A DNA stretch of 64,000 nucleotides from a bacterium (GTDB taxonomy: Bacteria; Bacillota; Clostridia; Lachnospirales; Lachnospiraceae). A program made the translations under genes and the position numbers. Location: assembly GCA_030524675.1 (NCBI GenBank), contig JAUNGE010000001.1, positions 62,001 to 126,000 on the forward strand, given 5' to 3'. The notes below the pieces were generated by a model. It worked only from the letters and a program-made list of their open reading frames with translations. It did no database searches and had not been told where the DNA came from. Positions 59,369 to 63,710 of the stretch are shown one piece after another (position 1 is the stretch's first letter; each line of letters opens with the position of its first letter).

Positions 59369-59440
59369 AAAAATGCCGGAAGCCCTGCCATTTTCCCATT
59401 TTTTTGGAAACAGCAGCCACTTCCGGCATTTTCATTTTTA
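59369..59440. terminator. Convergent terminator after DUF368
   Basis: AAAATGCCGGAAG (59370-59382) pairs with CTTCCGGCATTTT (59420-59432). CATTTTTATTTTG follows on the plus strand; the minus strand has its own T-run beyond the other arm. Confidence 0.85.
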
Positions 59441-59477
59441 TTTTGCTTTTTTCTGGTTGTTCTATTCTTTCTTGTTT

Positions 59478-60101
59478 TTACTCTTCTGATTTTTTCTCGC
59501 AGGACTCTTCACAGATTTCACATGCTTCCTCAGCTTTTTCGCAAATTTCTTCTGCTGCCTCTTCACATGTCTCACAGACTTCCTGTGCCTTCTCGCAGAT
59601 TTCTTCCGCTGCCTCTTCACATGCTTCCTGTGCCTTCTCGCAGACCTCTTCTGCCGCTTCCTCACAGATATCCTCACAGGTCTCGCAGGTTTCCTCTGCC
59701 TCGTCATCTTCATCCACGATTATCGTCTCTGCTTCAGACGGTTTTACTGGCATCTTCGCACCACATTTGCTGCAGAATGCATCCTCTCTGCTGAGTTTCG
59801 CACCGCACTCTGGACAGGTACGGCACCCCTCCATCTCGCAGATTTCATCCTCCAGGGCAGAAATTCGGTTCTGTGCAGCCTCTGCCGCCAGAAACTCTGT
59901 GACGAATTCTTCTGCTGGTCCCTCTGTTTTGTATGTCTCGTAGTATTTTTTACCAATCGCCTGGAAAGTCTCGTTTAATTTTGTTTTCTCGCTCGACAGC
60001 TGCGCTTTCAATTTCAGCACATCTGTCAGCCCCTTCGCTTTATTTACGGCTTCTTTCCCCCTGCCGGAAAGAGTCTTTCCAAAATCCTCAAAAAAATTCA
60101 T
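59478..60101 (-). CDS. Zinc-ribbon coiled-coil protein with Cys-Glu repeat tail
   Basis: 207 residues. Residues 1-95 are helical (basic start, KLKAQLSSEKTKLNETF). A zinc ribbon follows (CPECGAKL...CSKCGAKM, about 97-118), then an acidic link (DEDDEAEE). The last 70 residues are 12 Cys, each followed by Glu, in a 15-residue repeat of the form CEEAAEExCEKAxEx with short CE-x insertions, all helix-forming. The repeat is also visible at DNA level. Four-ligand zinc binding by the ribbon is expected. The tail might bind metals or be redox-active; I know of no described family with it. It follows a strong promoter and GGAGG. Confidence 0.85.
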   Translation of the reverse strand: MNFFEDFGKTLSGRGKEAVNKAKGLTDVLKLKAQLSSEKTKLNETFQAIGKKYYETYKTEGPAEEFVTEFLAAEAAQNRISALEDEICEMEGCRTCPECGAKLSREDAFCSKCGAKMPVKPSEAETIIVDEDDEAEETCETCEDICEEAAEEVCEKAQEACEEAAEEICEKAQEVCETCEEAAEEICEKAEEACEICEESCEKKSEE

Positions 60102-60125: not shown

Positions 60126-60154
60126 ATTTTACCCTTTTTCTACAAAATAGTCAA
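60126..60154 (-). promoter_or_regulatory. Sigma-A promoter of the Cys-Glu repeat gene
   Basis: TTGACT (60154-60149), 17-base spacer, TAAAAT (60131-60126). The start would be about 20 bases before the ATG, giving a short leader with AGGAGG. Confidence 0.85.
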
Positions 60155-60188: not shown

Positions 60189-62438
60189 CTACTCATACAG
60201 ATGAGAGAAATATCCAATATCTTCTAACAGGAAATCCGGAGCCTGATTCAACTTCAGATAATGCGTCCGTGTGAGAGAACTTCCCGACGCTTTCTGCAAA
60301 GTCACTTCGATATAGTCCTCATAGGAGCTCCAGACATTCAGATTCGCATACTGACTCGGTATCAGCGCTGGATAAATCTGTGCTACCTCATCTGGATTGG
60401 TGTACACATATGTGATTTTCTCTCCATCTTCATCTATGCTGCACTGTACGCCCTCACGCACCATTCCATTCACTGCTGTCTCCAACAATTTATGCCCCTC
60501 TGCATAATAGGTCATAATCTCTATCTTGCACTGTACATAGTCGCTGTACGTATCTTCCTCCAAGTCCACACCAAATCCGCGCAGCACTTTGAGCGTATTT
60601 TCAAAAGACGGATAGATCGGATACTGCTGCTGGTAATACGTTCCTCTCCAGTTGGCAGAAATCTCCTGTTTCTCTATTTTTTTCTCCAGCAGACTGTCAA
60701 ATTCCTCTCGGTCTCCCATATCTTTCACCACCACATACAGCAACATTCCCATTACGTTCTCCTCTTTCTGGGTGTTGACTGTCAGTGCCTCCATATCTTT
60801 CTGGTAGGCTGCGAGTACTGCCTCTATCTGGGATGGTTCCAGTTCCTGAAGCCCTGCGCGCGCGCCCTCATGAAAGCGCACATACATCTGATAAACCTCA
60901 TCCGCACTCTGCTGCATAACCGGATAGCGGCCTTCTTTATACTCTATCGAATTCAAAATCGTCTCGCAGGCGGTATCCACCATAGAACGCGGCACAAAAT
61001 AGCGGCGTATCTTGATTTTTCCGGATTTCATCCGGTATCCGATGGTATAGTTGAGCATTTCTTCGTCTTCATATCTCTGCGGTATACTTCTTCCATTTTT
61101 CTTAAATTCATCCAGATAGGAAACACCTGCGGACGCCATAGCAAGCACCGAGTCCTTATCTTCCAACATCATATGTTCCCTAGCATAATTTTCTGCATAC
61201 CCATTCGTCCACTGAATCGTTCCATCCTGTCTTTCATACGTTCCATAATCAACCCAATTCTCGAAATATCCAGTGTCAAGATAAGCAGACTCGACCTGGT
61301 CTGCCTTTGGCAAGTATGCATCATATCCAAACATATCAAAGTAAAATCCCAGAAAAATCGCAAGGGATGCCGCAAAACACAGCACCAGGTGCACCGGATG
61401 CGCGAACAGTTTCCTGAAATCAAAATGGTACAAGATCTCAATCAGACAATGGAAGAACACGCTGCCGAACACAATTCCAAACAGTGCCCACGGCATGGTC
61501 TGACGGATTCCCCAGAAAAACATCATGCTGTATAAAGAAAGCGGAATCACTAACAATACTTTGATGGGCGTTCTCGATAGGGGAAAGGCCATCGCTTTTC
61601 CCGCCGCCTCCGACGGGCGTTTCTGGTAGAGCCAAAGTGCCACTCCCATCAGAACCGCAGCGACAGCCAGCGCGGATGCCATCTGCCCGATGGGCAGTTT
61701 TGCCATAAATACATTCTGTTCTGCTTCTCCCACCCATTCGGCGGCCTGAATATAGGCAGAAAACGGTGAAATATTCACCATTTTTCTCAAAAATACTGCT
61801 GAATTGGCATACGTCACAAAAGAGGAATCAAACAACAGCTCCACCAGCACACCTAACAGCGGCACATAAGAGAAAAATACCAACACGCCGAGAATCCCAA
61901 GAAACAGATTTCCTGTCATCATCATTGCCACAACCACTGTGGCATACATCAAAAGGAAATAAATCATATGGAAACACAGACTTTTCACTATGTTGACAGA
62001 AAGCACCGCAGGGGACGCCCCAATCCCTGCCGCAATCACAGCTCCGACTGCCATAAACAACAGGTAAGGAACCAGCATAAGCAGAAAGCCGTCCACAAAA
62101 TTCACGAAGAACAACGTCTCTCTTCTCACAGGAATACTGTGATAAAAATCGACTTTTCTTCGGGAATGTAGATAGGAAAAACTGGAAAGTCCGAGGACAA
62201 CAGCTCCTATTATGATGCAAGTGATGACATAGCCATTGTTGATGCGAAACCACTCCTCTGCTCTCTGGGCAATCATCACCTTTCTCTGCACTTCGTTGTC
62301 AAAACGGTACTCGCCTGGTATCATGGCAATGCGCACCGGAAACACAAAAAACCATGCCAGCAGCACCAGAGTCATTGCCCAGAGCCTGCGCTTGATGTCC
62401 TCGCGCATTAATTTAAAAAATAAGTTTTTTGATGTCAT
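60189..62438 (-). CDS. ABC-2-type transporter permease with C-terminal DUF6449-like region
   Basis: 749 residues. Helices at about 20-45, 70-90, 110-140, 155-180, 190-210, 245-270, 300-330 and 350-370, then a large soluble part (about 375-749) rich in Tyr and charged residues, as in bacitracin/lantibiotic-type exporters' accessory permeases. The YtrA-regulated ABC operon context suggests a role in cell-envelope stress or antibiotic response (inference). It overlaps the ATPase gene by 26 bases. Confidence 0.85.
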   Translation of the reverse strand: MTSKNLFFKLMREDIKRRLWAMTLVLLAWFFVFPVRIAMIPGEYRFDNEVQRKVMIAQRAEEWFRINNGYVITCIIIGAVVLGLSSFSYLHSRRKVDFYHSIPVRRETLFFVNFVDGFLLMLVPYLLFMAVGAVIAAGIGASPAVLSVNIVKSLCFHMIYFLLMYATVVVAMMMTGNLFLGILGVLVFFSYVPLLGVLVELLFDSSFVTYANSAVFLRKMVNISPFSAYIQAAEWVGEAEQNVFMAKLPIGQMASALAVAAVLMGVALWLYQKRPSEAAGKAMAFPLSRTPIKVLLVIPLSLYSMMFFWGIRQTMPWALFGIVFGSVFFHCLIEILYHFDFRKLFAHPVHLVLCFAASLAIFLGFYFDMFGYDAYLPKADQVESAYLDTGYFENWVDYGTYERQDGTIQWTNGYAENYAREHMMLEDKDSVLAMASAGVSYLDEFKKNGRSIPQRYEDEEMLNYTIGYRMKSGKIKIRRYFVPRSMVDTACETILNSIEYKEGRYPVMQQSADEVYQMYVRFHEGARAGLQELEPSQIEAVLAAYQKDMEALTVNTQKEENVMGMLLYVVVKDMGDREEFDSLLEKKIEKQEISANWRGTYYQQQYPIYPSFENTLKVLRGFGVDLEEDTYSDYVQCKIEIMTYYAEGHKLLETAVNGMVREGVQCSIDEDGEKITYVYTNPDEVAQIYPALIPSQYANLNVWSSYEDYIEVTLQKASGSSLTRTHYLKLNQAPDFLLEDIGYFSHLYE

Positions 62439-63312
62439 ATCCCACTACCTCCGTTTCGCTGATAAAGATTTCCTCCAAGGATAATGGTATCAACTCATAA
62501 AATACAGGATGGTACCCTGTCATCAGCGATTCCACTTCATCACGGCTGCCCCGCACGGTCAGCGTGTACAGGCGTCCGCGCTTTTCCATCTTAATCGTAT
62601 CAAGTCCCATCAAATCTTCCGCACGCATGCCCTCCTCCAGCACACACTGCACTTTATGGATGTTTAACTTCATATCATCCAGTTCCTTTGAGAGAAGAAT
62701 CCCTCCCTTGTGCAAAAGCCCCACATGGTCACAGATATCCTCCAGCTCTCTCAGGTTATGAGATGCAATCACAGGTGTGAGATTGCGCTCCTCCATGTCC
62801 TCCGCAAACAGACTCTTCACCGCCTGGCGCATCACAGGGTCCAACCCGTCAAAGGTCTCGTCACACAGAATGTACTCCGTGTTCGCACACAGTCCCAACA
62901 GAATGGAAACCTGTTTTTTCATTCCCTTGGAGAATGTGTTCATCTTTCTGCGGATATCCAGGTCAAACCCTTTCAATAGCTTCTGAAAGCGTGCGCGGTC
63001 AAATGCCGGATATACAGATGCATAAAACTGCATCATCTCCTCTGGAGATGCATTGCTGAAATAATACGCATCATCCGAAATATAGAAAAACTTCTTTTTT
63101 GCCGTGACCGACTCAAACACCTTCGTCCCATCCACGGTGATTTCTCCCTCATCGGGCTTTAGCACACCGGAAACCATACGCAGAAATGTGCTTTTTCCGG
63201 CACCGTTCGTTCCAATCAGACCGAACACATTTCCTTCCTTAATCTCTGCATGGATATGGTCCACAGCAAGGATATCTTCAAACCGTTTCGTCACATTTAC
63301 TGCCTGTATCAT
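62413..63312 (-). CDS. ABC transporter ATP-binding protein (YtrB-like)
   Basis: 299 residues. Walker A GLIGTNGAGKST (about 36-47) and LCDETFDGLDP for Walker B. The signature is atypical: NTFSKGMKKQVSILLG replaces the common LSGGQ, as often seen in this YtrB-like family. A C-terminal extension of about 80 residues follows the core. It pairs with the permease at 60189-62438 and is regulated by the GntR protein whose stop overlaps its start (ATGA). The ATG at 63312 (GGAGGCGGACGGGT upstream) is used, not 63342. Confidence 0.93.
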   Translation of the reverse strand: MIQAVNVTKRFEDILAVDHIHAEIKEGNVFGLIGTNGAGKSTFLRMVSGVLKPDEGEITVDGTKVFESVTAKKKFFYISDDAYYFSNASPEEMMQFYASVYPAFDRARFQKLLKGFDLDIRRKMNTFSKGMKKQVSILLGLCANTEYILCDETFDGLDPVMRQAVKSLFAEDMEERNLTPVIASHNLRELEDICDHVGLLHKGGILLSKELDDMKLNIHKVQCVLEEGMRAEDLMGLDTIKMEKRGRLYTLTVRGSRDEVESLMTGYHPVFYELIPLSLEEIFISETEVVGYDIKKLIF

Positions 63313-63710
63313 ACCCGTCCGCCTCCTTCTGCTTTCTCGCATGTCTCACATTGAAAAAATGCATCCTGCACCATCTGTGTCATCTCCTCGAGGGAAAATC
63401 CTGCCGCACGGCCATCCTTTACAAACCCTGCCGCCTTCTCAGCCAACTCCCTCTCCTTCATCTTTCGGATACCGTCCTTAGGCGCCACAAAACTGCCTTT
63501 GCCCTTGACAGAATAAATAAATCCCTGGCGCTCCAACTCGGCATATGCTCTCTGTATGGTATTCGGATTGATGGACAAATCCACTGCCAGGCTTCTCACA
63601 GACGGAAGCTGTTCCTCTTCATTCCAGACTCCCCGCACAATGGATTCTTTCAGGCGGTCCGTGAGCTGTTCATAGATGGGCCTTCTATCCCTATAGTCGA
63701 GAATAAACAT
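63309..63710 (-). CDS. YtrA-subfamily GntR transcriptional regulator
   Basis: 133 residues, the short YtrA type: N-terminal winged helix (about 10-80, RPIYEQLTDRLKESIVRG, LPSVRSLAVDLSINPNTIQRAYAELERQG) and a short C-terminal dimer domain of about 50 residues with no ligand pocket of FadR/HutC type. It should repress its own ABC operon through the palindrome at 63769-63795. ATGA overlap with the ATPase gene. Inducers of YtrA systems are wall-active antibiotics in some relatives. Confidence 0.92.
   Translation of the reverse strand: MFILDYRDRRPIYEQLTDRLKESIVRGVWNEEEQLPSVRSLAVDLSINPNTIQRAYAELERQGFIYSVKGKGSFVAPKDGIRKMKERELAEKAAGFVKDGRAAGFSLEEMTQMVQDAFFQCETCEKAEGGGRV

Follow-up and report, generated by a model that had tools for sequence, protein, structure and literature searches.

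Within the 64,000-nucleotide stretch of Lachnospiraceae DNA analyzed here (the window), we identified a 207-amino acid zinc-ribbon protein that terminates in an acidic tail with 12 cysteines, each followed by glutamate (the CE tail). Homology identifies the helices and ribbon of this protein as its conserved core, and sequence analysis indicates that the tail is one of several independent Cys-rich tails occurring at the same position. Our preferred, still tentative reading is that of a cytoplasmic helical zinc-ribbon adaptor whose rapidly replaced acidic Cys tail would be an accessory thiolate module binding Zn(II) or soft metals.

A helical zinc-ribbon core widespread in Clostridia

The protein comprises N-terminal helices, a zinc ribbon, an acidic linker, and the CE tail (Table 1). 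The ribbon, C96xxC99-x10-C110xxC113, scored 31.2 bits with the Pfam model Zn_Ribbon_1 (PF13240), whose cutoff is 25, and Zn_ribbon_3 (PF13248) also scored above its Pfam cutoff; like members of both families, the protein carries one CxxC-x10-CxxC ribbon that passes the curated cutoff. These ribbon models span just 23-26 residues, and no Pfam model scored above cutoff on the N-terminal ~90 residues or on the tail. An NCBIfam search with the protein gave only matches below cutoff, menD and PhoU among them. AlphaFold2, run on the single sequence as a single chain, produced a model of moderate confidence (mean pLDDT 69.8, pTM 0.37) that places helices at residues 3-21, 25-60, and 64-91 ahead of the ribbon. 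Both the Pfam match and these predicted helices bear out the first-pass annotation, which had read this part of the protein as a coiled coil plus a CxxC...CxxC ribbon. Searching solved structures by sequence returned nothing significant for the protein, and Foldseek retrieved no match from the PDB at E <0.001, just helix-bundle and NZF-like ribbon matches.

Table 1. Features of the ribbon gene and its conserved neighbors (positions in the window; residues refer to the encoded protein)
Feature	Position	Strand	Basis
Whole gene, zinc-ribbon protein with CE tail, 207 aa	59478..60101	-	ORF translation; Pfam Zn_Ribbon_1 and Zn_ribbon_3; homologs
N-terminal helices, residues 1-91, conserved	59829..60101	-	Alignment A1; predicted helices
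Zinc ribbon C96xxC99...C110xxC113, invariant in alignment A1	59763..59816	-	Pfam; alignment A1
Acidic linker, residues 119-138, low confidence/disordered	59688..59747	-	pLDDT <50 at residues 120-137 (AlphaFold2 model)
CE tail, residues 139-207, with a Glu after each of 12 Cys; two helices predicted by AlphaFold2 (138-168 and 173-206)	59481..59687	-	
Repeat unit 1, CEEAAEEVCEKAQEA, from residue 146	59622..59666	-	Tail composition/codon analysis
Repeat unit 2, CEEAAEEICEKAQEV, from residue 161	59577..59621	-	Tail composition/codon analysis
Repeat unit 3, CEEAAEEICEKAEEA, from residue 179	59523..59567	-	Tail composition/codon analysis
Candidate sigma-70-like promoter, TTGACT-17-TAAAAT, between permease and ribbon genes	60126..60154	-	
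ABC permease with DUF6449, upstream, conserved neighbor	60189..62438	-	Pfam; region comparison
ABC ATPase, conserved neighbor	62413..63342	-	Pfam; region comparison
GntR-type regulator, conserved neighbor	63309..63710	-	Pfam; region comparison

In a sample of one genome per species, 255 of the 397 genomes from the same taxonomic family matched the full protein, and 241 of 291 class-sample genomes matched the domain alignment (A1), some of them perhaps through the ribbon alone. Invariant in A1 are the four ribbon cysteines, F3, L31, G50, and Y54. As judged from these homologs, helices and ribbon are a widespread family of gut-type Clostridia, common but uncharacterized; our literature searches revealed no paper on an architecture of helices, ribbon, and CE tail.

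FlgZ (HP0958; DUF164, PF02591) likewise has a C4 zinc ribbon after a helical coiled-coil N-terminus; the available part of PMC3372290 gives its coiled coil as 170 residues and the DUF164 motif as CXXC-X18-26-CXXC, and describes no CE tail. In our protein, by comparison, the ribbon gap is 10 and the helical N-terminus about 90 residues long. Membership in this family was rejected on the ribbon spacing, 10 and not 18-26, and on the lack of a PF02591 match at E up to 1.

Genomic context of the ribbon gene

The ribbon gene lies 87 bases downstream of the ABC permease, and in close relatives a GntR/ABC-ATPase/ABC-permease cluster has the gene at its 3' end. Relatives of the permease occurred in 9 of the 20 regions compared, that of the congener included, mostly directly upstream of the ribbon gene. 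With a promoter-like site in the gap between both genes, of a kind that shuffled sequence of the region contains 0.7 times on average, co-transcription with the permease is not certain. No metal-transport or metal-resistance gene was recognized among the identified neighbors, nor was a redox partner. Gene neighborhood, taken by itself, suggests a possible link between the ribbon protein and the transporter. In arrangement only, the GntR-ABC genes resemble B. subtilis ytr, in which a GntR repressor accompanies an ABC transporter that has a link to the lipid II cycle (PMC12772383, an article in which the word zinc is absent).

Convergent with the ribbon gene is an undecaprenyl-phosphate translocase-like gene (PF04018; 58444-59328). 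Relatives of this gene, along with genes of sulfatase-domain and phospholipase-D type, are found close to the ribbon gene in several other genomes and form a recurring envelope-gene neighborhood. Between the two convergent genes, positions 59370-59432 hold a 13-base perfect inverted repeat (AAAATGCCGGAAG ... CTTCCGGCATTTT) with a 37-base loop that, read by eye, looks like a bidirectional terminator.

A cysteine stripe on the predicted tail helices

The CE tail (69 amino acids) contains 28 Glu, 12 Cys, 11 Ala, and 5 Lys, with a net charge of about -24 (29 acidic and 5 basic residues). Its cysteines, which fall within residues 139-201, are spaced by 3, 4, 8, 7, 8, 7, 3, 8, 7, 3, and 4 residues. 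Our count thus reproduces the 12 Cys-Glu pairs on a 15-residue repeat that had been noted at first: in the three CEEAAEExCEKAxEx units spacings of 8 and 7 alternate, and insertions of 3 and 4 residues interrupt the strict 15-residue period. Projected on a helix, the cysteines form a stripe (resultant 0.78 at 98 degrees per residue) that exceeds chance, none of 500 random placements scoring as high, in a statistic that is descriptive because repeat units are not independent. Ala, Ile, and Val in the tail have this 98-degree periodicity in common with Cys. Significant periodicity was found in none of eight other Cys-rich homolog tails tested, which makes the helical Cys stripe a feature of this protein alone. 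The AlphaFold2 model predicts a helical form for the tail, with two helices (Table 1), and both this prediction and the stripe agree with the initial proposal of a helix that places Cys on a defined face.

As far as the accessible part of PMC4721544 covers it (its reference 34, Kuhnel 2004), the VASP tetramerization domain is a right-handed coiled coil with a 15-residue repeat. The CE tail resembles this type of coiled coil, rather than belonging to it, in the 15-residue spacing of a small or hydrophobic stripe, a period that its insertions interrupt; its stripe consists of Cys and Ala instead of large hydrophobics, and its strong negative charge further sets it apart. SmtA-type bacterial metallothioneins are likewise multi-Cys, a property that would be expected to confer Zn/Cd binding, SmtA having in addition a zinc-finger fold (PMC10612145), whereas the CE tail is devoid of His and CxC and carries its cysteines on a predicted long acidic helix. 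A prokaryotic metallothionein was rejected, as no metallothionein family in Pfam or NCBIfam matched at E up to 1. Designed thiolate coiled coils bear Cys in stripe positions as the CE tail does, and de novo Cys3 coiled coils bind Cd, Hg, and As.

Divergence of the repeat units

At the DNA level the repeat is imperfect, with 73% matches at the 45-bp period and 83% at the 54-bp period. Parsimony assigned 10 synonymous and 4 nonsynonymous changes to the three repeat units, against a neutral synonymous fraction that ranges with transition bias from 0.20 to 0.30 (P = 4e-5 to 1.5e-3). Pairwise comparisons between units, which overlap and, like the parsimony counts, involve small numbers, gave pN 0.05 and pS 0.73 to 0.98. 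Moreover, the units were chosen for a common amino-acid motif, which favors a low nonsynonymous count and makes this test supportive rather than conclusive. We observed 17 synonymous differences between units, near the 21.0 +/- 3.1 of independent codon draws, and therefore the duplication is not recent. Because unit differences are mostly synonymous and pN is low, Cys, Glu, and Ala appear to have been kept in the tail. These data support, although not conclusively, a tail that is old and held at the protein level rather than a recent product of slippage. The first-pass annotation had proposed expansion by slippage; the DNA repeat is indeed there, at both periods, but the mainly synonymous divergence of the units speaks against slippage. 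A second open frame, strongly basic and 83 codons long, overlaps the tail in another frame (59462-59713, minus strand); judging from the synonymous bias of the CE frame, it is unlikely to be a gene.

Repeated appearance of Cys-rich tails in homologs

We compared the tails of 190 homologs, of which 130 came from the same taxonomic family and were ranked by similarity to the full query, thus a nonrandom set, and 60 from a class-wide search with the domain only. Tail Cys are not retained across these homologs: 87 of the 130 same-family proteins have no Cys after the ribbon, and the 56% identical protein of the congener, a MAG (contig JAUNGR010000031.1, matched via the permease), ends in an acidic tail that has a single Cys and lacks the CE repeat. 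The CE tail is accordingly lineage-specific, not a family trait, and was found in this species only among the homologs compared. A protein search with the tail, a check proposed at the outset, recovered no CE relatives in 397 genomes and found nothing beyond Ala/Glu-repeat proteins at E about 1e-4. A degenerate DNA pattern of three CE codon pairs, with matches in 230 of the 397 genomes, was largely background and was dismissed as uninformative. Another run of TGYGAR codon pairs in the protein's own genome (G000:C15:20289-20354), the complementary strand of which reads as an L(T/A)DS(K/E)-like repeat, is probably a different repeat protein.

Acidic tails rich in non-ribbon Cys, under a threshold of at least four such residues after the ribbon that was chosen after the tails were seen, occurred in 10 of the 190 homologs. 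Their motifs differ, encompassing CE repeats, CECC, CGCGCG, CNC...CSC, and ECC. Besides the protein under study (L001, CE repeats), the set includes L025 (CECC three times), L018 (CDCGCGEKTCGC), L111 (CGCGCGCG), L126 (ECCC...ECGG), L104 (G054:C8:10950-12100; an independent CE-rich tail with nine Cys, six of them followed by Glu, without helix periodicity), L232, L235, L239, and L216. The L126 tail (G226:C63:4700-5900) is a long GEAAEEAAE repeat broken by a CCC block. Once ribbons are removed, Cys makes up 0.5% and Glu 20% of the other 183 ribbon-bearing tails, a pool without the six Cys-rich first-set tails but with the four from the class set. The domain tree covered the six first-set tails, which need six changes on it, at least four of them forced by well-supported branches, and thus are mostly of separate origin. 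The other Cys-rich tails share neither spacing nor helix periodicity with the CE tail, so that no site is conserved across Cys-rich tails. A congener of the CECC bearer likewise lacks the Cys, and tail type turns over fast, also within the genus of G162. A second zinc ribbon occupies the tail position in 23 of the 130 same-family homologs and 28 of the 60 class-sample ones, which indicates that an extra metal site is often carried there.

The metal-buffering role first suggested for the tail is plausible. For the family, the finding named beforehand as counterevidence, homologs without tail Cys, is what we observe: the congener and most homologs lack them, and only helices and ribbon are conserved. 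The alternative then offered, a random low-complexity expansion, describes the tail poorly, given the mainly synonymous unit differences and the separate Cys-rich tails at the same position.

Discussion

We propose that the core would act as a helical zinc-ribbon adaptor, encoded, here and in closely related genomes, beside a GntR-ABC transporter cluster, and that the tail would bind Zn(II) or other soft metal ions via helix-borne thiolates, with Glu keeping it soluble and adding weak ligands. Such a tail would be metallothionein-like in function, yet not a metallothionein, and the Cys stripe on the predicted helix would suit metal-thiolate layers within a helical bundle. That Cys-rich acidic tails arose repeatedly at one position is a hint of extra metal binding. 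It is from such sequence patterns that we infer metal binding by the tail; helical metal-thiolate layers, and a buffering or sensing role, may likewise be envisaged. Weighing against this reading are the congener's lack of the Cys, the failure of the Cys-rich tails to share a conserved site, the finding of no recognizable metal-transport or metal-resistance gene among the identified neighbors, and the moderate confidence of the structure model. We regard as doubtful a bolder version in which the CE tail would be a natural metal-thiolate coiled coil with Cys layers binding several soft metals, and in which the family would repeatedly evolve such modules beside the ribbon, with convergent metallothionein-like function in anaerobic Clostridia.

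The main rival to the metal-module reading takes the tail as an acidic Ala/Glu amphipathic helix or coiled coil for protein contact or solubility, not metal, with Cys as small hydrophobic filler. We consider this possible but less likely: A/E-rich acidic tails free of Cys are present in many relatives, Cys and Ala/Ile/Val follow one periodicity, and the repeat obeys an i, i+3/4, i+7/8, i+11, i+15 pattern, yet Cys is reactive and rare in the pooled other tails, and blocks of 4-12 Cys recur at this position mostly without helix periodicity, as in CGCGCG and CECC. Repeat slippage might alternatively have left a selectively neutral low-complexity sequence, in line with the detectable DNA repeats, the absence of the CE tail from the congener, and the fast turnover of tail type, but this seems improbable in view of the excess of synonymous changes between units and of a divergence that argues against recent duplication. 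We give still less credence to a redox module in which oxidative stress would link neighboring thiols by disulfides and so switch the protein, in the manner of thiol-based sensors. Many closely spaced thiols do line one helix face, and Lachnospiraceae-type Clostridia are anaerobes to which oxygen stress matters; however, tail Cys are not conserved in relatives, no redox partner was recognized among the neighbors, and thiols at i/i+7 and i/i+8 on one helix are too distant for intrahelical disulfides, although oligomers could form them.

The interest of the CE tail stems mainly from the convergence of Cys-rich tails. If these tails bind metal, a very common uncharacterized protein of Clostridia would repeatedly gain metal capacity through different Cys-rich tails, and the CE tail would be a natural helical counterpart to coiled coils designed with Cys. 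If the tails bind no metal, they would serve as a warning against reading function into Cys-rich low-complexity tails. Either way, the helices-plus-ribbon protein beside GntR-ABC genes is a common unknown that deserves a name.
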